64,000 bases of DNA from Nitrospira sp. bin75 (GTDB lineage Bacteria > Nitrospirota > Nitrospiria > Nitrospirales > UBA8639). The notes beneath the pieces were generated by a model. That model was given only the letters and a program-made list of their open reading frames with translations, made no database searches and had not been told where the DNA came from. Position 1 is the first letter of the stretch. Each line of letters begins with the position of its first letter. The position numbers and the translations under genes are program-made. Where the stretch lies: positions 1-64,000 of the forward strand of contig MPMZ01000010.1 of assembly GCA_002238765.1 (NCBI GenBank). The letters run 5' to 3'. This document shows positions 28,433 through 41,386 of this stretch, piece by piece.

Positions 28433-29338
28433 TTAGTAGCGTCGCAGGGATGGGATCTCTGTGTTCCATAAGTGCTTGCGCGCGGCGCGCCAAAGCTGTT
28501 CCAGCACGGCATTGAGATCAGGGGCTGAACGGGCCAACAGTTTCACCACCAGGCCCGGTACGGAAGGTTCGGATACTCCTCCCAATACCTCGTTGGCTTT
28601 GTTCTCGAATATCGTCGTCACGTCGTTCTTGATCCGGTCCCAGGTTGGCGATGTCACGTTATCGCTGACCACGAAGAACGATCCCACGTAATTCCACTCC
28701 CGGGTAAACGGCAGGCATGGATTGTCCCGGCCCGGTGAGAGGCAATACCGTTCCTCGAGGGATTTCCCGTCAGAAAGCCGGATCGTCATCCGGTTCTCAA
28801 AAGAGGAAAATTGCCATCGTTCTCCTCGAACGACTCGCCCGGCTGCCAGGGCGTCCCAGAGGATGAGAGACGCGCCCGTATCCAGTTGTACGGTTATCCT
28901 TTGGTCGAAACAGGAACCTGAAAATGGAATGACGGGTTCGGGTATCCACTCACAAATGGCGTCGGCCCCGACGCGGAGGTCGATCGACTGGACCGCGGGC
29001 TTGTGCAGCGTTCGATAGACCCTGGTTGCCGAGGGGGTTGTGAAGAGCACGTGTGAGTCTTTCCCCAGTTCTGCCTGAAGGAAACACGTATCTCCTCCAA
29101 CGAATCCTCCAGACGGATTCGTGAGGAACGTCGTCGCACACCCCGTTTGGTCAAGGTACAGGGGTTGGAAGAAATACCAGGGGTGGGAAAATCGCGAGCG
29201 GGTAAAAACGGTCTTGCCGTTTCGGTTTGCACATTCAACGAACAATTCCCCTTTTCGCGTGCGAGCAGATCCCTGATCGAATGGTGGATGTTTCGGAATC
29301 ACCCCGGGATGCTTTTCGACCTCATGTAGACCGGGCAT
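28433..29338 (-). CDS. ureD: Urease accessory protein UreD (UreH)
   Basis: 301 residues from ATG 29338; a TTG at 29344 abutting ureG is the alternative start. UreD words NPSGGFVGGDTCFLQAELG, TTPSATRVYRTLHKPA and PFSGSCFDQ are present. UreD binds apo-urease and, with UreF and UreG, carries nickel and CO2 to the active site. Last gene of the minus-strand urease cluster, in the unusual order ureABC-F-G-D. Confidence 0.92.
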   Translation of the reverse strand: MPGLHEVEKHPGVIPKHPPFDQGSARTRKGELFVECANRNGKTVFTRSRFSHPWYFFQPLYLDQTGCATTFLTNPSGGFVGGDTCFLQAELGKDSHVLFTTPSATRVYRTLHKPAVQSIDLRVGADAICEWIPEPVIPFSGSCFDQRITVQLDTGASLILWDALAAGRVVRGERWQFSSFENRMTIRLSDGKSLEERYCLSPGRDNPCLPFTREWNYVGSFFVVSDNVTSPTWDRIKNDVTTIFENKANEVLGGVSEPSVPGLVVKLLARSAPDLNAVLEQLWRAARKHLWNTEIPSLRRY

Positions 29339-29344
29339 GGGCAA

Positions 29345-30010
29345 TCAGTTGGTGGAACGCGGTCGAACGTGGCGTTCCACCCATTCCGCCACGTGGCTGA
29401 GTCCTTCCCCTGAGTGCAGGTTGGTGAAAACGAACGGTCGTTCACCACGCATGTGGCGACTGTCCCGATCCATAACGGTGAGGTCGGCTCCAACGTGCGG
29501 GGCCAGGTCGATTTTGTTGATGACGAGCAGCCCGGACCGTGTGATAGCAGGCCCGCCTTTTCGTGGGATCTTGTCTCCCGCAGCCACGTCGATCACGTAA
29601 ATGACATCATCCACCAGGTCGGGGCTGAACGTGGCGGCCAGATTATCTCCGCCGCTTTCCAGAAACACCAATTCCAGACCGGGGATCCGGTTGACAAGTT
29701 CCTCAATGGCGCTTTGATTATGGGAGGCGTCTTCTCGCACGGCTGTGTGGGGGCATCCGCCGGTTTCGACGCCGAGAATCCGTTCTTCGGGCAACACGCC
29801 GCGCCTGGCCAGAAACTCGGCGTCTTCTTTCGTGAAAATGTCATTCGTGACAACCGCGAGTTGAACGCGGGATTGCAGCGTACTGGCCAGGGCTTCGACC
29901 AAAGCGGTTTTGCCGGAGCCGACGGGCCCTCCGATGCCGATGACCGTAACGTTCCGTGTCCTTCGTGTCGTAGACGCGCCACCGCCGGGTAGTTCTTCAA
30001 TGAGATGCAT
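29345..30010 (-). CDS. ureG: Urease accessory GTPase UreG
   Basis: 221 residues. P-loop [17 protein letters not shown] (about 26-42), the nickel-binding CPH motif in [17 protein letters not shown] (about 91-93), [17 protein letters not shown], and the guanine-specificity [11 protein letters not shown] hydrolysis powers nickel delivery. No histidine-rich N-terminus and no ureE gene is visible, so UreG may take nickel from another carrier. Starts 5 bp after ureF. Confidence 0.97.
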
Positions 30011-30014
30011 GGTG

Positions 30015-30701
30015 TTACGACCTGAACATTCTGGACGTCAATTGCGCATGCCGCATGGCGTAGATTTCCTGGATTGGGGTCCAGGCCGTCAGCGGCGCGC
30101 AAGCGTCAATGTTTCGGCTGAGCTTCTCGATCAGGGGGATCCACGTCTCCAACAATCGCTGGCCTTCCCGCTGGCCGATGGGCAGTAATTTGTATGAAGC
30201 CGACACGAAGCCGACACCGGCCTGATACAAAAATCCGGCGATAGCCTGTTGTTGAGTCCATCCGATCTGTTGAAAGACCACGCCAAAGGTCACGGCTAGG
30301 TGTCCCGGTGAACGTCCCGATTCAACCGCCGTTGAGAAATCTTCAAGGATGCCCGGGTTGTCTTGCGGATGGATCGCATGACGTAACAGGCTCTGTCCCA
30401 TTTGACGACTGGCTGCCCGTGTTTCCCGGCATGGCTTCATCGACTCAAGGGTTCCATCGACCTGCATCACGCCTTTGAGATCGCTCTTGCCGGAAGCCTG
30501 GTAGGCTTGGGCCAAGGCAGCGGCGTCGCAGGTGCCCAATCCCCATCGAAAATAATCAACAACGTATCGATGCAGGTCTTCCACAGTTCGGACGTGACCT
30601 TCCTGAACGGCCGTTTCCAAACCCGAGGAAAAGGCAAACCCGCCGGACGGGAAGAACGTGTCGAGATAGCGGAAGCCTTGAAGGAGCAGACGAGTATTCA
30701 T
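30015..30701 (-). CDS. ureF: Urease accessory protein UreF
   Basis: 228 residues from ATG 30701 (TTG 30716 is in frame). All-helical, with [28 protein letters not shown] near the N-terminus, the conserved UreF opening, and a C-terminal SRMFRS tail. UreF gates the UreG-UreD-urease complex. Between ureC and ureG. Confidence 0.92.
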
Positions 30702-30737
30702 TATCGATTGCGTCAACCGGAGGTCATGAACGGAACG

Positions 30738-32465
30738 CTAAAATAGAAAATAGCGTTGCGCCATCGGCAGAACCTCCATGGGATCACAGGTCAACTGTTG
30801 ACCATCGGCTTTCACGATGTAGGTCTCGGGATCCACTTCCATGTCGGGTGTGGCGTCATTCAGTTTGAGATCGCGTTTGCCGATGCGTCGACAATGCCGG
30901 ACGGCCACGACCCGTTTTTGCAGGCCCAGGCGTTCGGGGATTCGGCCATCGATTCCGGCTTGTGAAAGAAACGTCACGCTCGTGTTGAAGAGGGCTCTAC
31001 CCCAAGCCCCGAACATGGGACGACTCAGCACCGGTTGGGGCGTGGGAATGGAGGCATTGGGGTCGCCCATGGCTGCTTCGACCAGAAATCCGCCCTTGAC
31101 GACGAGATCCGGTTTGACTCCGAAGAAGGCCGGGTTCCAGATCACCAGATCGGCTAATTTTCCGACTTCCACCGATCCGACTTCATTGGCAATGCCGTGC
31201 GTGATGGCCGGATTGATGGTGTACTTGGCGACGTAGCGTTTTGCCCTGAAGTTGTCATGCCGTTCCGTTGTCGGTTCGACGCCTGATGGGTTCAGGTGGC
31301 CACGCTGGACCTTCATTTTGTGAGCGGTCTGCCACGTTCGTGTGATCACTTCGCCGATCCGGCCCATGGCTTGAGAGTCCGACGACATGATGCTGATCGC
31401 GCCCATGTCATGCAGAATGTCTTCCGCGGCAATGGTTTCTCCGCGGATGCGGGATTCGGCAAAGGCAATGTCTTCGGGAACGCGAGGACTCAAATGATGA
31501 CACACCATCAACATATCCAAGTGTTCGTCAATGGTATTCACCGTAAAGGGCATGCTCGGGTTGGTGGAGGACGGCAGGACGTTCGGTTCCCCACAGACCC
31601 GGATGATGTCGGGGGCGTGGCCGCCTCCCGCGCCCTCGGTATGAAAGGTGTGAATCGTCCGTCCCCCGAATGCACGAATACTGTCGTCCACGAAACCCGC
31701 CTCATTCAACGTGTCGGTGTGAATGGCGACTTGAACGTCATAGTCGTCCGCGACGTCCAGGCACGTTGAGATGGCCGCCGGCGTGGTGCCCCAATCTTCG
31801 TGCAACTTCAGGCCGATCGCGCCGGCTTGGATTTGCTCCACCAACGCGTCGGGAAGGGAGGCGTTCCCCTTGCCCAGAAAGCCCAGGTTGACCGGAAATC
31901 CATCCGCACTCTCCAACATGCGACCGATATTCCATGACCCGGGCGTACAGGTCGTGGCATTTGTACCCGTGGCCGGTCCCGTTCCACCGCCCAGCAAGGT
32001 CGTCATCCCCGAGGATAAGGCTTCGCGAATCAGTTGAGGGCAGATGAAGTGGACGTGGCTTTCGACGCCACCGGCCGTCACGATTTTTCCTTCCCCCGCG
32101 ATCACTTCAGTGCCGGGGCCGATGGTCATTCCCGGCGAAACGCCTGACATGAGGTCCGGGTTGCCGGCTTTTCCAATGGCGACGATGCGTCCGTCGCGAA
32201 TGCCGATATCCGCTTTGACGATCCCCCAATAATCGAGAATAATCGCGTTCGTCACGACGAGATCCAAGGAACCGTTGGCGCGCGTGGCGGTCGGGGATTG
32301 TCCCATCCCATCACGAATGACTTTTCCCCCTCCAAACTTGGCTTCCTCACCGGGTGTCGTCAGGTCCTGTTCCACCTCCAGCAGGAGCTCGGTATCGGCC
32401 AGGCGGATTCGATCTCCCACGGTGGGGCCGAACAAATCCGCATATTGACGGCGCGGTATGTTCAT
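30738..32465 (-). CDS. ureC: Urease alpha subunit UreC
   Basis: 575 residues, standard. Nickel ligands are in place: SHVHF (about 136-140), the carbamylated lysine in [12 protein letters not shown] (about 219-230), [34 protein letters not shown] provides the flap histidines. Hydrolyses urea to ammonia and carbamate. ATG overlaps the ureB stop (ATGA). Confidence 0.99.
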
Positions 32466-32983
32466 GAGGCATCCTCCTCGTCAGCAAATCCCAGTTCGAC
32501 GGCGCGTTTCAGTGCTTGGGCCTTGACCCGGGCATCATCGAGCGCGCCGTTGGTCAAGCCGTTGATGCCATAGGCAATGCGATTCCCTCCAAAGGCAACG
32601 AGCGAGACGTGTTTTTCTTCCCCCGGTTCGAAGCGCACGGCGGTGCCCGCCGGGATTTTCAGTCGAAAACCGAATGCCCGCTCCCGAGAAAATCGCAAGG
32701 CGCGATTCACTTCAAAAAAGTGGCAATGCGAGCCCACCTGAATGGGCCGGTCACCATGGTTCGTCACCGTCAGCGTCAGAGTCCGGCGACCGGCAAAGGC
32801 GACGATGTCGTCCGTACCCAACAGGACTTCACCGGGAATGACAGGAGCCTGTTCGGCCCCGGGGACACCTTGTTGTTTGGGCGTGCGTGGTTTTGCGACT
32901 CTTGTGCTTTCTGTCGTGTCGCGTGTGCGGGATTGTTGTGGTTTTTTGGAGGACGGTTTTGGGGAAGGCTGCTTTTTTGCCAT
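32462..32983 (-). CDS. ureB: Urease beta subunit UreB with basic N-terminal extension
   Basis: 173 residues from ATG 32983 (an upstream TTG at 33007 is in frame). The canonical UreB begins at [15 protein letters not shown] (about residue 49) and ends normally; [18 protein letters not shown] and [17 protein letters not shown] identify it. Typical UreB has about 100-110 residues. Here some 48 extra residues, rich in Lys, Pro, Ser, Gln and Arg, precede the domain, and no start codon exists at the usual position, so the extension must be translated. Its role is unknown. Confidence 0.95.
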
Positions 32984-33092
32984 GATCAAAATTCCATCAG
33001 TAAACAATTCGCCTTGTTCTCATGAAAAGCGCGTCAGTCGAAGAAACGCACGAATTGTGGCTTCCGGCCTTGGGCAGGACGTGGCGCGCGCC

Positions 33093-33395
33093 TCATCGGA
33101 TGGGATTATGGACGGTCACGAGTTTTGTTCCATCGGGAAAGGTGCCTTCCACCTGAATTTCCGGCAGCATTTCCGGCACGCCGGACATGACGTCGTCCCT
33201 GGTCAACAAAGTTGCCCCGTCACTCATTAGGTCGGAGACTGAGCGTCCCTCCCGAATGCCTTCCAGTATCGCGGCGGTAATGTATGCGACTGCCTCGGGA
33301 TGATTTAATTTCAGCCCACGGGCTTTTCGGTCCTTGGCCAGTTGTCCCGCGACGTAGATGAGGAGTTTCTCTTGTTCTCTTGGACTGAGATGCAT
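33093..33395 (-). CDS. ureA: Urease gamma subunit UreA
   Basis: 100 residues, standard size. [46 protein letters not shown] and [22 protein letters not shown] are the UreA signatures. Starts 4 bp after the urtE stop, so transporter and urease are joined in one transcript. A 109-bp gap without clear hairpins separates it from ureB. Confidence 0.98.
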
Positions 33396-33399
33396 GAGT

Positions 33400-34110
33400 T
33401 TATACCACCAGGTGTTGTTTGACCGTTTCTTCCGTTAATTCCGAGACGGGCCCCGATGCCACCACCGCGCCTTTGGCCATGAGTACAAACGTATCCGCCA
33501 GGCGGGAAGCAAATTCAAAATATTGTTCCACCAATAAAATAGCGAACCGGCGTTGAGTTTTAAAGCCCTCGATGACTCGCTCGATTTCGATGACGATCGA
33601 TGGCTGGATGCCTTCCGTCGGTTCATCCAACAACAACAGTTTGGGTTGTGTCAGCAGGGCTCGGGCAATGGCGACCTGTTGTTGTTGGCCGCCGCTGAGG
33701 ACGCCGCCCGGCCGGGTGAGAAGTGCGGGTAAGGCCGGGAAAAGCGTGTAGACTTCTTCATAGGCTAATTCGGCGGTTTGCTGGTCTTTGGCTCCTTGAC
33801 GGGCTTCAAGCCCCAACCGAAGATTTTCTTCGACCGTCAGATGAGGAAACAGTTCCCGGCCCTGGGGGACGTACGCAATCCCCCGGGCCACCCGGCGATC
33901 GGGAGATTGCCCGGTCATGTCTTCGTTATGCAAGTACACGTGCCCGGTTTGTGGTTGAAGCAAACCCATGATGGTTTTCAGCAGGGTCGTTTTCCCGACT
34001 CCGTTTCGTCCCATGAGGCAGACGACCCGTCCATCCGGGACATCCAGGGAAATATCCCGCAAGATATGACTTTCCCCATAAAACACATTGAGTGTTTCAC
34101 ACCGGAGCAT
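33400..34110 (-). CDS. urtE: Urea ABC transporter ATPase UrtE
   Basis: 236 residues of the LivF type. Walker [16 protein letters not shown]-loop [18 protein letters not shown], signature [15 protein letters not shown], Walker [16 protein letters not shown]. The GIQPSI after Walker B is typical of UrtE over LivF. Overlaps urtD by 14 bp. Confidence 0.96.
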
Positions 34111-34927
34111 CGGCTTCTTTCTGTCGTCCGAGATAAATCTCGATCACGCGAGGATCGTTTTGAATATCCTCGACGAATCCCTCGCACAGGACGGTGCCTT
34201 CGTGCAGAACCGTGACCGTTTTCGCGATTTGCCTGACAAACTCCATGTCATGTTCAATCACGATCAGGGAATGCTTATGCGTCAGCGATTGAAGGAGTTC
34301 GCCGGTCTTTTCCGTTTCCTGCTCCGTCATGCCCGCCACGGGTTCATCGATGAGGAGTAGTTCGGGGTCCTGAAGAAGGACCATGCCGATTTCCAGCCAT
34401 TGTTTTTCGCCGTGTGACAGTTGGCCGGCAAGCACGTCAGCCTTATTCGTCAATCCGATGACCTCCAAGGTCTGGGCAATTTTATCAGACTCATCGGAAT
34501 TTAGCCTGGACAATAAGGTGGCAAAGACTCCCTTGTTCTTTCGACGGAGCGAAAGGTCCAGGTTGTCCCACACGGGGAGGGTCGTATAGACCGAGGGGGT
34601 TTGGAATTTCCGGCCGATGCCCAAGGCCGCGATGTCATTTTCCCGGAGGCCGATCAGGTCCGTGGCCTGACCGAAAACGACGCGCCCGGATATGGGTTGT
34701 ACTTTCCCAGAGATCACGTCCAATAGCGTGCTCTTGCCGGCTCCGTTAGGCCCGATCACCACTCGAAGCTCACGGTAATCTACGACCAGGTTGAGCTTAT
34801 TCAAGGCTTTAAACCCGTCAAAATCAACCGTCACGTGGTCGAGATAGATAATCGACCGTTGGTGTCTGGACCCTATGACCCTTCGTCCGTCGGTCTGTTC
34901 GCTGGGGGCTGGAACGTACTCGTCCAT
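34097..34927 (-). CDS. urtD: Urea ABC transporter ATPase UrtD
   Basis: 276 residues of the LivG type. Walker A VIGPNGAGKSTLLD, signature LSHGEKQWLEIGMVL (HGE-Q-W is typical of UrtD), Walker B LLLIDEPVAGMTEQET. A 25-residue polar N-terminal tail precedes the domain. Overlaps urtE at its end and lies 9 bp after urtC. Confidence 0.96.
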   Translation of the reverse strand: MDEYVPAPSEQTDGRRVIGSRHQRSIIYLDHVTVDFDGFKALNKLNLVVDYRELRVVIGPNGAGKSTLLDVISGKVQPISGRVVFGQATDLIGLRENDIAALGIGRKFQTPSVYTTLPVWDNLDLSLRRKNKGVFATLLSRLNSDESDKIAQTLEVIGLTNKADVLAGQLSHGEKQWLEIGMVLLQDPELLLIDEPVAGMTEQETEKTGELLQSLTHKHSLIVIEHDMEFVRQIAKTVTVLHEGTVLCEGFVEDIQNDPRVIEIYLGRQKEADAPV

Positions 34928-34936
34928 GGTACACGA

Positions 34937-36094
34937 TCAGTCGGTCACGGCTGCCTTTTCGATTTTCGATTTCCCGAAAGGAAGCATCGAATAGGCTTTC
35001 TTGAATATTCCCATGATACCTTTGGGGAAGAACATGACGACGGCGATAAAAAGCCCGCCCAGGAAAAAGGGCCAGAGCTCGGGAAAATGGTTGGTCAACG
35101 TGCTGCGCATGTAGTTGACGCCCGCCGCTCCGATGATGGCTCCCGATAGGGTCCCTCGTCCTCCCACGGCCACCCAGATCACCATCTCGATCGAGGGGAG
35201 GACTCCTATCTGGTTGGGTGTGATAATCCCGACCTGCGGGACGTAGAGCGCGCCGGCGAGACCGGCTAACCCGGCGGAGATCACAAACACAAACAACTTG
35301 TAACTCGCGGGCGAGTATCCGGAAAAAAATACGCGCTGTTCGCAATCACGAATGGCGATCAACACGCGTCCCGCCCGGGATCGGGTGATCCACCGGCAGA
35401 GAAGGTAGGCCAGGCCCAGGAACAGGATGGTCACCATGTACATGACGAGCTGGGTTGCGGGGTCATTCAACGAAAACCCCTGAATGTGCTTGAAGTCGGT
35501 CAAGCCATTCGTCCCGCCCAGATTGGTTTCATTCCGATTGAAGACCAACCAGGCAACGAGCGCGAGCGCTTGGGTGATAATGGAAAAATAGACGCCGCGA
35601 ATCCGGCTGCGGAAAACGAAGAAACCGAAGATCGCAGCGGCGGCCATCGGCACAAGGACTATGGCAGCCAATGAAAACGTCAGACTGTAAAAAGGTTTCC
35701 AAAACCAGGGAAGCTCTTTGACCTGGTTCCAGACCATGAAGTCGGGAAGGGCATTGCCATAGACGCCCTCCGTTCCGATTCCCAACATCAGGTGCATCCC
35801 CATGGCATAGGCCCCAAGCCCGAAAAACACACCGTGGCCCAAACTCAAGACGCCGGTATATCCCCAAATCAGATCAATCCCCAGGGCCAAAATGGCAAAC
35901 GCAAAAAATTTCCCCAATAGATTCAGGGTAAAGTCGGACACGTGAAAGAGCGAATCATCGGGCAAGAGATTGAGGAGAGGTACACCCGCAAAGAGGAAGA
36001 CTCCCACGACCCAGAATGCGGGACCTGCTCCCATGTGAGAAATCACGCTTGAGAGGCAGGTCGCGAGGCGGCCTCGTGGATGCTCAGGAGTCAA
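34937..36094 (-). CDS. urtC: Urea ABC transporter permease UrtC
   Basis: 385 residues, LivM type with about ten membrane helices. IDLIWGYTGVLSLGHGVFFGLGAYAMGMHLML and GRVLIAIRDCEQRVFFSGYSPASYKLFVFVISAGLAGLAGALYVPQVGIITP are UrtC hallmarks, and WVAVGGRGTLSGAIIGA closes the family pattern. Start is a TTG at 36094 overlapping the urtB stop by 11 bp; an ATG further in would cut the first helix. Confidence 0.95.
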   Translation of the reverse strand: MTPEHPRGRLATCLSSVISHMGAGPAFWVVGVFLFAGVPLLNLLPDDSLFHVSDFTLNLLGKFFAFAILALGIDLIWGYTGVLSLGHGVFFGLGAYAMGMHLMLGIGTEGVYGNALPDFMVWNQVKELPWFWKPFYSLTFSLAAIVLVPMAAAAIFGFFVFRSRIRGVYFSIITQALALVAWLVFNRNETNLGGTNGLTDFKHIQGFSLNDPATQLVMYMVTILFLGLAYLLCRWITRSRAGRVLIAIRDCEQRVFFSGYSPASYKLFVFVISAGLAGLAGALYVPQVGIITPNQIGVLPSIEMVIWVAVGGRGTLSGAIIGAAGVNYMRSTLTNHFPELWPFFLGGLFIAVVMFFPKGIMGIFKKAYSMLPFGKSKIEKAAVTD

Positions 36095-37625
36095 GGTGTC
36101 GTCCCTTCAGTGCAAAGAGTCCGGAGGGCCGGACCTGGAGGAACAGGATGATGAGCACGAGAATGATCACTTTCCCATACACGGCCCCGAAACCGGGTTC
36201 CAACAATTTATTGAGTGTGCCGATGCCGAAAGCGGCGGTAATTGTTCCGGCGAGTTTCCCGACACCACCGGCGACGACGACCATAAAAGAGTCCACAATG
36301 TAATTCCGCCCGAGTTCGGGATCCACGTTTCCGACCAAGGTGAGGGCGCTGCCGGCCAAGCCTGCCAAGCCCGAGCCGAAGGCAAAGGTATAGGCGTCCA
36401 ACTTCCTGGTGGGAATGCCCAAGCAGGCGCTCATCTCGCGATTTTGTAAAACGGCGCGTACCCGAAGACCGATGCCCGTTCGAAACAAGAGTATATAGAT
36501 GCCGGCGACGCAAAAAAGGGCCAGGAAGATGATGAAAAGCCGGTTGTAGGGAAGTTGCACGCCGACCACGACCTGCGCGCCGCCCCTGAGCCAGCTTGGG
36601 GCCTGGACTGCCGTGAGATCTCCGAAGATGAGGCGGGCGGTTTGGATCAGGACGAGCCCGACTCCCCAAGTGGCGAGTAACGTCTCGAGGGGTCTTCCAT
36701 AGAGAAATCGAATGAGCGTGCCCTCCAGGATCCATCCGATGAAAGCCGCGACGAAAAAGGCGCAGGGGAGAGCCAGGAAGAAATAATAATCAAAGAGGTG
36801 TTCGCCGAGGTACGCTCTGAATCCTTCCTGCACGACGAACGTGGCATAGGCTCCGATCATCATCATTTCGCCATGCGCCATATTGATGACACCCATGAGA
36901 CCGAATACAATGGCCAGTCCCAGGGCCATGAGAAGCAGAATGGATCCAAGACTCAGGCCTTGCAGCAGCATTTCGATGCCTCGTGTGACGTCCTGCCATT
37001 TCTGTATCCGGCGACTCGCTTTTTCCGATTCGTCTTTTAGTGCTTGCTGTTCGAGGTTGCCGGCCCGTTGGTTTGCAAAGTCCTGTAAAATCGGAAGAGC
37101 TGCGGCACTGCGCATGTCACCCAGCTTCTGAATGGACGCGAACTGCACTTGTGGGTCGGCGCTTTCGAGGTTGAGTAGATGAATGGCCTCTTCCAGGTCG
37201 TATCGAACCCAGTGCTCTTTCTCACCGGACAACGCGTGCTTGAGGATCGGTAACGCTTCCGGCGTGCCTCGTGCGCCAAGGTCTCTGGCCGCGGCCCGAC
37301 GGTCCTCCTTGTCCGGACTGGCCAGCCCCGCTTTGTTCTTGAGCAGGTTGATGACGGGCTTTATCAGCCTCCGGACGCGCCGGTTCGTATTCGAGCGAAA
37401 TTCTTCAAGTTGAGGAAGCAGGGCGGGATCGCCGTTTTTCAAGAGATAGTCGACCGCCAGTTTTTTTTCAGGCCACGGGCCTTCAATGAGCGAGGTCATG
37501 GCCTCTTGCATCGTCATGATTTCGGACGATGCCGGGGATGATTCCTGGGCAATGGCAAGGCTCGACACGGACCCGGAAAAGAGCACCAGCCACGCGAACA
37601 AAACGGGCATGAACGATCGTTTCAT
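36084..37625 (-). CDS. urtB: Urea ABC transporter permease UrtB with periplasmic helical repeats
   Basis: 513 residues from ATG 37625 (MKRSFMPVLFAWLVLFSG, a signal peptide ending near AIAQ). The open frame continues upstream but only overlaps the urtA spacer. Residues 30-210 form HEAT-like helical pairs (PEALPILKHALSGEKEHWVRYDLEEAI, AAALPILQDFANQ), as in long UrtB proteins. The LivH-type permease follows: LALGLAIVFGLMGVINMAHGEMMMIGAYATFVVQE, and FAFGSGLAGLAGSALTLVGNVDPELGRNYIVDSFMVVVAGGVGKLAG. Confidence 0.95.
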   Translation of the reverse strand: MKRSFMPVLFAWLVLFSGSVSSLAIAQESSPASSEIMTMQEAMTSLIEGPWPEKKLAVDYLLKNGDPALLPQLEEFRSNTNRRVRRLIKPVINLLKNKAGLASPDKEDRRAAARDLGARGTPEALPILKHALSGEKEHWVRYDLEEAIHLLNLESADPQVQFASIQKLGDMRSAAALPILQDFANQRAGNLEQQALKDESEKASRRIQKWQDVTRGIEMLLQGLSLGSILLLMALGLAIVFGLMGVINMAHGEMMMIGAYATFVVQEGFRAYLGEHLFDYYFFLALPCAFFVAAFIGWILEGTLIRFLYGRPLETLLATWGVGLVLIQTARLIFGDLTAVQAPSWLRGGAQVVVGVQLPYNRLFIIFLALFCVAGIYILLFRTGIGLRVRAVLQNREMSACLGIPTRKLDAYTFAFGSGLAGLAGSALTLVGNVDPELGRNYIVDSFMVVVAGGVGKLAGTITAAFGIGTLNKLLEPGFGAVYGKVIILVLIILFLQVRPSGLFALKGRHLDS

Positions 37626-37734: not shown

Positions 37735-39108
37735 TCACGCCTTCTTGTACGTGCCTTTGTGATTGACCCAGTCACACCCTTTATCAGGGCTGGTATATTC
37801 ACTCCAGGGTTCCGGCCGCACGAGGTCCGTTTGCGAAATGATCGTAAATTGTCCGTTTTTGCGAATCTCGCCGATGAGCACCGGCTTGTGGGTATGATGG
37901 TTGACCGCATCCATCTTCTTCTTGCCGCCGGGTGCATCGAATTCCAACCCGTACACGGCCTTTCGTACGGCGTCCACGTTGACCGCGCCGGCTTTTTCCA
38001 CGGCCTGTTTCCAGACGTGGACGCCGAAATAGGCGGCTTCAATCGGATCGTCGGTGACTCGTCCGTTCCCACCCGGCAGTCCGTTCTTCTGACAATAGGA
38101 TTTGAAGTCGGACACGAATTTCTTGTTTCCCGGCGTGTCAACGCTCTGATAATAATTCCAGGCAGCCAGATGTCCGACTAACGCGGTCGTGTCCATGCTG
38201 CGAAGTTCATCTTCGGCCACACTGAAAGCCATGATGGGAACGTCTTCCGACCTGAGGCCCTGATTGGCAAATTCTTTGTAGAACGGCACGTTGCTGTCCC
38301 CGTTGATCGTACTGATCACGGCCGCGTCTCCACGACGGGAAAATTGCCTGACGTTGCTGACGATGGTCTGGTAATCCTGGTGGTGGAACGGGGTATATTC
38401 CTCACCGATATGTGAAGCGGGCACGCCCTTGGCGAGCAGCATCGCCCGCAAAATTTTGTTCGTCGTCCTGGGATACACGTAATCCGTTCCCAACAGGTAG
38501 AATTTCTTGTAGCCTCCACCTTCCTCGCTCATCAAATAATCAACGGCGGGAACGGCTTGTTGATTGACGGCAGCTCCGGTATAGAACACGTTTCGCGAAC
38601 ATTCTTCCCCTTCATATTGCACGGGATAGAACAACAACCCGTTGTTGCTTTCGAACACGGGCAGCACGGATTTGCGACTCACGGATGTCCAACAACCAAA
38701 CACGGCGGCGACTTTATCGACCAGGAGAAGTTGTTTGGCCTTTTCCGCAAACAAATCCCAATTCGAGGCGGGATCGACGATCACGGGCTCGATCATCCGC
38801 CCGAGGACACCTCCCGCGGCGTTGATTTCTTCAACCGCCATCAACACCACGTCTCTCAATGAAACCTCGCTGATGGCCATTGTGCCACTCAAGGAATGCA
38901 GCACGCCTATCTTAATGGGTTCTTTGTCTGCGGCATAGGACAGCGCGTAATTCCCCAGGTTGCCCAGAAGCGCCGCGATGCCGAATCCTGCCGCGGTCTT
39001 CCCGGCGTCCGTGAAAAATTGGCGCCGGCTTTTCTCAGGTGTCTGGTCGAGCGGGTTCTCTGCCTTGTTGTCCATGGTTTCGGAAATACGTTCTTTCGGT
39101 GAATTCAT
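37735..39108 (-). CDS. urtA: Urea ABC transporter substrate-binding protein UrtA
   Basis: 457 residues from ATG 39108 behind GAAGGAGA (an in-frame ATG at 39153 lacks a ribosome site). [23 protein letters not shown] near residues 27-50 looks like a twin-arginine signal peptide. The mature part is a periplasmic binding protein: [56 protein letters not shown], all UrtA-specific, with [13 protein letters not shown] at the end. Captures urea in the periplasm. The Tat-type signal fits with the two tatC genes here. Confidence 0.97.
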
Positions 39109-39176
39109 GTTTTGCGTCTCCTTCAATGTATCATTGGAATGTTGGCTTGCCATGTTGTCAATACATCAAGTTGTCG

Positions 39177-40397
39177 TTAGATCTGCCACTGAAGGGCCAA
39201 CTTGATGACGCCGACGTCGTCACCGGTGACACCTGGCGTCCAATTTCTCCCTTTCGTGGCAATATCGCCATATTGATAAAACAGTGAAATCTTGGCGTTG
39301 TGCCCGTCGATGATGTAATTCGTGCCGAATTCAATTTCACTCCGGCTGGTGCTGAAGTCCGGATTATTCGCCGTATACCGGACATAGGGTTGAAATTGTC
39401 CGATCCCTAATTTTTGGGGAAAAAGGTACAACCCCGTCGCCGTCCAGGAATCTCCGTCGAACAGGCAAAAGCAGCCGGGGCCACCTTCGGTCAAAGCTTC
39501 ATCGAAAGTAGCCTGAGACATTCCGGTATCAAACGCTTTATATTCTCCTTCAAAGGTCAGGACGCCCTTGTTCGGCAGGACTTTTTCCATCAGGAGATCG
39601 GTACTGTAGCCTGTGAAATCCGATTGATTGGCGGCTGTGCCGGCCCCGTCTTCGTGGTGTTGCAAGGCGAAAGCCAGGGTCAGGATGTCTCCCCCTTTAC
39701 CATAATAGGTGCTGCTGGTGTAATAGCCCGGGTTTTTTTCCACGTCCCAGAAGTTGTAGCTCACGCGACCCGCCCAGAGCAGGTTGTCGCCCGTATTCGG
39801 ACGTCCAGCCATACCCGAATGATCGACCCCGTCAAATACCCCGACGACGTAGGTCAGCCGCTTGTCCTCGAAAAAGGCGCCCCAGAGGTTGACCCCGTCG
39901 TCACGGCCGAACCGGCCCGCCACGAAGTTGCCGAAGTCAGACGGGTAGAACGGCGTCTTATTGAAATCAAAGGTGTTTTGGAAATAGGGACCGTCGAGTT
40001 CGGCGCGATCCGACGGGACCAATTGCCGGCCCGCCCAGATGTTGATGTACTGATTGAACTCGAATTTGCCGATGGCGTCGAGGACAATCATCGTGCCGCT
40101 GCTGTTGTCTCCGAGGCAATTCGTACAGTCCGTGTTGAATTCAATTTTCAGGTACTTGTGGAATTGCCCGTTGACGTAGAGCCGCATATTCTCCAACCCG
40201 AAATGCTTGCTCCAATTCTCGCCATCGGCGGCACCATCCTCCTGTGCGAAGAAATGCACCCGTGCTCCGGCGCCGATACTGAGCCACTTGTCATCGCCGA
40301 ATTCGAGTTTCGGACCGGCCAATGCGGGTACTGTGAACAACAACATCACGAAGAAAATAATATTGAATGTGGTGTATTTGAGTATATTCATGGACAT
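39177..40397 (-). CDS. Outer-membrane porin, probably for urea or short amides
   Basis: 406 residues. Signal peptide (IIFFVMLLFTVPALAG), then alternating polar/aromatic beta strands ending in LALQWQI, the aromatic C-terminal strand of a 16-strand-type barrel. Internal FGLENMRLYVNGQFHKYLKIEFNTDC, VWAGRQ-like INIWAGRQLVPSDRAEL and SEIEFGTNYIIDG resemble phosphate-selective porin O/P-like and amide porins. First gene of the urea cluster, 68 bp before urtA, so it most likely lets urea or short amides across the outer membrane. Two Cys in DCTNC may form a loop disulphide. Confidence 0.85.
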   Translation of the reverse strand: MSMNILKYTTFNIIFFVMLLFTVPALAGPKLEFGDDKWLSIGAGARVHFFAQEDGAADGENWSKHFGLENMRLYVNGQFHKYLKIEFNTDCTNCLGDNSSGTMIVLDAIGKFEFNQYINIWAGRQLVPSDRAELDGPYFQNTFDFNKTPFYPSDFGNFVAGRFGRDDGVNLWGAFFEDKRLTYVVGVFDGVDHSGMAGRPNTGDNLLWAGRVSYNFWDVEKNPGYYTSSTYYGKGGDILTLAFALQHHEDGAGTAANQSDFTGYSTDLLMEKVLPNKGVLTFEGEYKAFDTGMSQATFDEALTEGGPGCFCLFDGDSWTATGLYLFPQKLGIGQFQPYVRYTANNPDFSTSRSEIEFGTNYIIDGHNAKISLFYQYGDIATKGRNWTPGVTGDDVGVIKLALQWQI

Positions 40398-40569
40398 ATT
40401 CCTTTTTCATTTTCAGAATCAATTTTGCAGAGTTAAGAACAACGCAAAAACAAAGAAATCAGAAAATCATCATTGAGGGTTTCGGCAATGCGGGAAACAC
40501 CGTTGTTTTCTTGGGAACCGCGAATCCTCCGTTTGGAGCCCTCTTTTTGCCGTCATCCGTGAGATTGAC
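40398..40569 (-). promoter_or_regulatory. Spacer between leader terminator and porin start
   Basis: No gene. On the minus strand it runs from the terminator to the porin ATG, with a small hairpin CTCCAAACGGAG (about 40526-40537) and AAAAGGAAT as ribosome site. If the leader terminator is read through, this becomes a long 5' untranslated region. Confidence 0.45.
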
Positions 40570-40613
40570 AAAAAAAAACGCCCTTCTGGTCCGAACCACA
40601 AACCAAAAGGACG
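40570..40613 (-). terminator. Rho-independent terminator at the end of the urea-operon leader
   Basis: Minus strand: CGTCCTTTTGGT (40613-40602), 11-nt loop, ACCAGAAGGGCG (40590-40579), then nine T (40578-40570). It lies about 110 nt after the promoter at 40693-40721 and about 170 nt before the porin ATG. It might instead end the nitroreductase transcript. Confidence 0.85.
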
Positions 40614-40686
40614 TCAATGTCCTTACTCATGTTCTATAGGCTGGTCAGGAAAACCTCCTCGTTTTCCAACCGCGCCATCTTATGGT
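40570..40686 (-). ncRNA. Structured leader or small RNA upstream of the urea operon
   Basis: Inferred transcript of about 117 nt from the promoter at 40693-40721 to the terminator. A 5' hairpin pairs GGAAAAC (40667-40661) with GTTTTCC (40654-40648) around loop GAGGAG, extended by GGTT/GACC. Then AGGAC (40623-40619) can pair with GTCCT (40612-40608), which overlaps the 5' arm of the terminator. The two hairpins cannot form together, the layout of a transcription attenuator or riboswitch. I do not recognise a known riboswitch class. Confidence 0.5.
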
Positions 40687-40692
40687 TGAAGG

Positions 40693-40721
40693 CTTATATC
40701 GGAATGGTTTTTAAATGTCAA
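40693..40721 (-). promoter_or_regulatory. Strong sigma-70-like promoter for the urea operon leader
   Basis: Minus strand TTGACA (40721-40716), 17-bp spacer, TATAAG (40698-40693). Both hexamers are at or near consensus and the spacing is ideal. It lies 50 bp beyond the nitroreductase stop and points to the porin-urt-ure genes. Confidence 0.75.
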
Positions 40722-40771: not shown

Positions 40772-41386
40772 TTAAGGATGTTCTTCTTTTTTGAACCGGC
40801 CGGTTACGATGATTTCCTCTAACGGGCGCCGGTCGTTTGGCTGCTCTCTCTCTTGAAGGTGAGTGGGCAGGGATTCCTTGGGTGCCCGCTTTCCTATCGC
40901 GATCATGGCCAGGACGTCGTAATGGTCCGGTACGTGCAGTGCTGTTCTGGCCTTCTCGTAATCGAATCCCTGCATCCCGTGCACGACGAGTCCTCGTCGT
41001 GTTCCCTCCAACGCCAGATTTTCCCACGCCGCACCGGCATCGAAGGCATACGTGGCGGCGGGTTTGTCATTCCGTTCAAAGAGCTTTCTGGCCGTGACGA
41101 CCACCAGAACGGCGGCCTGCCGAGCCCAGACTTTATTGCCTTCGGCCAGCAAATCCACAAACGTGTCCCAGAACTTGGTTTCTCGCTTCGCATAGACGAA
41201 TCGCCACAGTTGCGCATTGTTCGACGACGGAGCCCAGCGAGCCGCTTCAAACAGAGGCATAAGCTCGCCATCGGACAATTCCTCACCGGTCATCGATCGG
41301 GGTGACCATCGGTTGACGATAAGGGGATGAATGTCATAGTTCGGCTTTCGCTGCTCTCGTACTTCTTCCGTCAGTGAATCGTTCAT
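40772..41386 (-). CDS. Nitroreductase family protein
   Basis: 204 residues. FMN-binding pattern: VNRWSPRSMTGEEL (SxRxF-like opening), ARWAPSSNNAQLWRFVYA, and GAAWENLALEGTRRGLVVHGMQGFD followed by LAMIAIGKRAP. These enzymes reduce nitro compounds, quinones or flavins with NAD(P)H. Upstream of the urea-operon promoter on the same strand; no functional link is evident. Confidence 0.9.
   Translation of the reverse strand: MNDSLTEEVREQRKPNYDIHPLIVNRWSPRSMTGEELSDGELMPLFEAARWAPSSNNAQLWRFVYAKRETKFWDTFVDLLAEGNKVWARQAAVLVVVTARKLFERNDKPAATYAFDAGAAWENLALEGTRRGLVVHGMQGFDYEKARTALHVPDHYDVLAMIAIGKRAPKESLPTHLQEREQPNDRRPLEEIIVTGRFKKEEHP

Follow-up and report, generated by a model that had tools for sequence, protein, structure and literature searches.

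A predicted ANTAR-target antiterminator leader ahead of the urea operon of a Nitrospira genome

The urea operon and its leader region

The 64-kb stretch of DNA that we analysed (hereafter the window) carries an operon for urea uptake and hydrolysis on the minus strand, headed by a porin gene (Table 1). The product of this first gene is presumed to be a urea/amide porin. The ORFs at the positions of ureF and ureD gave no NCBIfam match at 1e-30 and are assumed to be those genes. An Rfam match to 5_ureB_sRNA (RF02514, 91 bits) lies antisense to ureC and may reflect only conserved urease coding sequence. Upstream of the leader, on the same strand, is a nitroreductase gene.

Table 1. Position and strand of features of the urea locus in the window
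Feature	Position	Strand	Remarks
Nitroreductase gene	40772..41386	-	
Promoter	40693..40721	-	TTGACA (40721-40716), 17 nt, TATAAG (40698-40693)
P1 hairpin	40643..40671	-	Inner stem GGAAAAC/GUUUUCC (40667-40661/40654-40648); hexaloop GAGGAG (40660-40655; G1, G4); outer GGU/ACC
P2 hairpin	40607..40624	-	AAGGAC[AUUGAC]GUCCUU (A1, G4); antiterminator half
Intrinsic terminator	40570..40615	-	Stem about 40615-40579; nine U's 40578-40570
Dual-hexaloop ANTAR-target module (predicted)	40607..40667	-	E 4e-11 with covariance model R1, whose 28 training sequences include it
Third hexaloop hairpin	40494..40509	-	AAAC[AACGGU]GUUU; downstream of terminator; weak fold in the window
Porin, first gene	39177..40397	-	Outer-membrane; sub-threshold NCBIfam match to ExtI; next gene urtA, as in L215
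urtA, urea ABC transporter binding protein	37735..39153	-	TIGR03407, 568 bits
urtB, urtC, urtD, urtE, ureB, ureC, ureG	28433..37000	-	NCBIfam
5_ureB_sRNA match	32020..32318	+	RF02514

As read from the sequence, the promoter, the two hairpins (P1 and P2) and the terminator all lie on the minus strand, and transcription would be expected to start at about position 40686. The initial annotation, which gave no strand, had described a near-consensus promoter, a 5' hairpin with a GAGGAG loop and an AGGAC...GTCCT pairing in competition with the 5' arm of a strong terminator, and each of these is present: the GAGGAG hairpin is P1, and the 3' arm of P2 lies inside the terminator stem, so that P2 and the terminator are mutually exclusive. 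Folding energies were -14.3 kcal/mol for P1, -7.0 kcal/mol for P2 and -24.5 kcal/mol for the terminator. The terminator is the default structure because it is so much more stable than P2, and P2 therefore needs something to hold it folded. The whole minus-strand leader gave a folding z of -4.76, equalled by none of 200 shuffles, and the terminator alone gave values of -6.2 to -7.0; the plus-strand fold of the region was set aside as irrelevant to an element that sits on the minus strand. Scanning both strands of the window for the full arrangement (a P1 hexaloop RNNG, a P2 hexaloop ANNG and an overlapping terminator) returned exactly one match, and the same scan of 200 dinucleotide-shuffled 64 kb sequences returned one match in total.

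Conservation of the leader and likeness to ANTAR-target RNAs

Porin upstream regions were compared among nine genomes of the genus, including the genome under study. Promoter, P1, P2 and terminator are retained in the urea leaders of all nine; the sequence of P1 varies with its pairing preserved (the loops in L014 are AACGAC in P1 and AGUGAC in P2), and the RNA outside the hairpins, promoter and terminator is variable in both sequence and length. The porins of another genus (g10, L010-L012) showed no leader of ANTAR-target type upstream. A genome from a different family (G273, locus L215) has a canonical module, with loops AACGGC and AAUGAC and a similar terminator, ahead of a gene homologous to the porin gene of the window, there broken into two frames, and then urtA; by its sequence, this is a putative independent urea leader in which position 1 of P1 does not depart from A.

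This comparison bears on two simpler explanations of the locus. The initial annotation had recognized that the terminator might serve only the nitroreductase gene, which does lie upstream on the same strand, in which case the urea operon would be unregulated. This is contradicted by two relatives (L047 and L107) that have no nitroreductase gene in the flank examined and nevertheless keep promoter, P1, P2 and terminator; a conserved promoter separates the nitroreductase gene from the hairpins, and a plain terminator would leave P1 and P2 unexplained, so we consider it scarcely credible. Attenuation by a ribosome that stalls while translating a short ORF over P1 or P2 might be suspected from a 14-codon ATG ORF that spans P1 in the window and from another that starts before P2. 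However, the ORF over P1 is missing in most relatives, L005 and L014 lack the start of the P2 ORF, and the nine urea leaders share no conserved run of one amino acid, which makes a leader peptide just as difficult to sustain.

The pairing of P1 is borne out by covariation. Among 59 distinct P1 sequences, 90.8% of cells were paired, as against at most 55% when the alignment was slid, and 90 double changes were counted against 24 in shuffles, all seven pairs changing on both sides. The inner GGAC/GUCC of P2 is invariant among 31 distinct sequences, and covariation support for P2 is weak because of this invariance; P2 is additionally constrained by the terminator. Conservation and covariation, which had been proposed as a check on the leader, are thus found in that the leader is kept across the genus and P1 covaries strongly.

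ANTAR-target RNAs, described in 2012, consist of two hairpins with six-nucleotide loops, the second of which competes with a terminator, and the published hexaloop consensus has A at position 1 and G at position 4 (PMC3369931). In the window, P1 and P2 have stems of 7 and 6 bp (at least 3 bp being required), both loops are six nucleotides long and carry G4, both are closed by AC/GU pairs, and an intrinsic terminator overlaps P2. Exchanging the AC/GU closing pairs disrupted eutP induction (PMC3369931). Position 4 of the P1 loop is G in 65 of 65 leaders and position 1 is A in 51 and G in 14, more than half of these leaders having been found with a model that favours such loops. A1 is thus absent from one of the two loops in the window: P2 has it and P1 has G1, as in seven of the eight other urea leaders of the genus, and the homologous leaders L014 and L215 have A1. 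The search criterion in use for ANTAR-target loops allows a single point variation (PMC8164766), and G1 in P1 is the sole departure here. An A1U change in eutP reduced induction (PMC3369931). In the EutV-RNA structure G4 makes the only base-specific contact and A1 has no specific contact (PMC8934654), so by analogy G1 at this position of P1 would be tolerable in principle. The linker measures 18 nt from the outer P1 stem and 23 nt from the inner stem, within the 2-25 nt that have been reported for actinobacterial ANTAR targets and in excess of the 5-12 nt found in eut leaders, in which a longer spacer harms antitermination.

Beyond the terminator, the third hexaloop hairpin is retained as AC(RNNGNN)GU in eight of the nine urea leaders, followed in L014 by a P2-like UGAC[GAAGAA]GUCA; from its form it is possibly the remnant of a second, tandem module.

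A single ANTAR protein and related leaders ahead of other genes

A PF03861 search of the genome (a 3.0-Mb draft) found exactly one ANTAR protein (73 bits, contig C14), with the domain order GAF-GAF-ANTAR. Exactly one was also found in each of the 49 family genomes examined (49/49), and the ANTAR loci read in the family hold the same long frame. The ANTAR part can be aligned with EutV, Rv1626 and NasR; the equivalents of EutV Tyr164, Met172, Asn173 and Arg175 are F, M, N and R, and of the six residues through which EutV contacts RNA, two are changed (R168 to Q and R177 to S). Work on NasR has shown that an aromatic residue, usually phenylalanine, is needed at the position equivalent to Tyr164 (PMC7496416). 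The GAF domains of EI-Ntr (PtsP) and NifA are among the best sequence matches to the GAF part; as this likeness is generic GAF similarity, it may be given no more than moderate weight as a pointer to a nitrogen signal. GAF-type ANTAR proteins were, as of 2012, an architecture without a characterized example (PMC3369931).

When ANTAR-gene loci were scanned with the same rule, a module was found in most family genomes between the ANTAR gene and its neighbour nadE, a linkage that emerged without having been looked for. In one such leader the hairpins read GAC[AACGAC]GUC and GGAC[AAUGGC]GUCC and the terminator ends just before nadE, which encodes a NAD synthase with a nitrilase domain, of the glutamine-dependent type. 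The linkage seen in relatives is not intact in our assembly: a transposase-like ORF follows the ANTAR gene (L001 1727-2737, minus strand) and nadE is on contig C44, where it has its own leader with a diverged P1.

A covariance model (R1) built from 28 leaders was then used to search the genome under study, the family and a sample of the phylum. Matches with terminators precede a receiverless sigma-54 activator (L173-L179), a BBP2 porin with amt (L180 and others) and nirC with nirA (L181, L183 and others); in a second family they precede nadE, nrtA-like binding proteins, amt, nirC and porins, some of these target-gene names having been assigned by reading the sequences. In the genome under study there are four leaders, ahead of the urea operon, nadE, a porin-amt-glnK cluster and the sigma-54 activator. 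The third of these, at porin-amt-glnK-amt on contig C62, has P1 GGGAC[AUCGGU]GUCUU and P2 GGAC[GACGAA]GUCC. Weaker matches without terminators, in the same genome (L187, L188, L193, L194) and in relatives (L191, L200, L201, L211), were rejected, as they look like chance or coding matches.

In the phylum sample, an R1 match (E <=1e-3) was present in 45 of 99 genomes with an ANTAR protein and in 2 of 147 without one (Fisher p = 4e-19, uncorrected for the kinship of these related genomes, and obtained with a model that was trained on the leaders themselves). The two exceptions are G210, in which the remains of a module-like element, not followed by a long ORF (L210 2609-2671, minus strand), lie beside ureF-ureG-ureD-like genes, and G139, in which the match has no terminator.

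The two hexaloops, the overlap of P2 with the terminator, the presence of a sole ANTAR protein and the sharing of the leader by other nitrogen genes together lead us to predict, with high confidence, that the leader of the urea operon is an ANTAR-target antiterminator RNA. An attenuator with mutually exclusive hairpins, as first suggested, is therefore upheld by its conservation and covariation, whereas a new class of riboswitch or attenuator is not, given its predicted membership of a known type. A metabolite riboswitch, in which an aptamer binding urea, guanidine, glutamine or nickel would drive the choice of the terminator, could likewise present mutually exclusive hairpins before a metabolic operon. 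Against this, Rfam scans of the leader at gathering and permissive thresholds gave no match to a riboswitch or other cis-regulatory family, in keeping with the initial annotation, which had recognized no riboswitch, and the best sub-threshold hit was a PyrR site at 21.9 bits (gathering 54); the RNA outside the hairpins, promoter and terminator varies, there is no junction or pocket-sized conserved core, and the same two-hexaloop module stands before unrelated genes. We regard a riboswitch as very improbable, if marginally less so than a leader peptide or a plain terminator.

Proposed control of nitrogen genes

Our current working model for the predicted ANTAR-target leader is that, by default, the nascent RNA would form P1 first and the strong terminator next, ending transcription at about position 40570. 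On activation, a dimer of the GAF-GAF-ANTAR protein would bind the hexaloops of P1 and P2 and keep P2 folded, which is the known route to holding such a hairpin (PMC3369931, PMC8934654); the 5' arm of the terminator would thereby be withheld, and polymerase would enter the porin-urtABCDE-ure operon. Both the binding of the ANTAR protein and the direction of control at the urea leader are inferred by analogy with those systems. Nitrogen status is the most probable signal, given that the remaining targets are uptake genes for ammonium, nitrite and nitrate-type substrates together with a glutamine-dependent NAD synthetase; control of the urea operon by nitrogen status, one of the options offered in the initial annotation, is thus plausible.

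The arrangement resembles the eut leaders with EutV, nasF with NasR and amiE with AmiR (PMC3369931, PMC8934654) in its two G4 hexaloop hairpins, the overlap of P2 with the terminator, the AC/GU closing pairs, the nitrogen genes downstream and the ANTAR protein in the genome. It differs from them in that the P1 loop of the window starts with G rather than A, the spacer is longer, the regulator is GAF-GAF-ANTAR rather than linked to REC, NIT or AmiC, and a single regulator seems to act on several operons. NasS-NasT at nas leaders (PMC3795266) and AmiC-AmiR likewise use an ANTAR protein to antiterminate nitrogen-uptake operons, as is predicted here; unlike in those systems, a sensor partner gene was not observed next to the ANTAR gene, and two GAF input domains lie in the same chain. 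Urea transporters were among the ANTAR-associated genes listed in 2012 (PMC3369931).

Taking the several targets together, we moderately favour the view that one GAF-GAF-ANTAR protein acts as an order-wide, post-initiation regulator of nitrogen assimilation in the Nitrospirales, which would sense intracellular nitrogen through its GAF domains and antiterminate urea, ammonium, nitrite and nitrate-type uptake genes and nadE, the sponge-associated genus tolerating G1 in P1. Nitrite oxidation and complete ammonia oxidation are performed worldwide by members of the Nitrospirales, and the papers located report the nitrogen genes that these bacteria possess. For such genes, the evidence points to a candidate master switch, together with the RNA element that it would recognize and the operons that it would control. 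Predicted RNA targets are also now available for a GAF-type ANTAR protein. The closest named relatives of the genome in the collection searched are metagenome-derived Nitrospirales, and it probably belongs to lineage IVb, family UBA8639, to which mostly sponge-associated genomes have been assigned (PMC12342949). A text search of the same order-wide comparison of the Nitrospirales, from 2025, found no mention of ANTAR or antitermination. A search of article texts in the library used, for ANTAR with Nitrospira or NAD synthetase, found no report for the Nitrospirales. The type of RNA switch is known, and the proposed nitrogen control circuit of the Nitrospirales appears to be undescribed.

Some of the leaders show further variation. 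Seven-nucleotide rather than six-nucleotide P2 loops occur in sigma-54 activator and nirC leaders (L173-L179, L181-L184 and L198), those of L184 and L198 having T at position 4. ANTAR modules are also found before genes for putative lipoproteins or beta-barrel proteins without an evident nitrogen role (L217, L214, L212), and tandem pairs of modules precede an nrtA-like gene (L209 5943-6111, minus strand) and the putative lipoprotein gene of L217 (2380-2529, minus strand).
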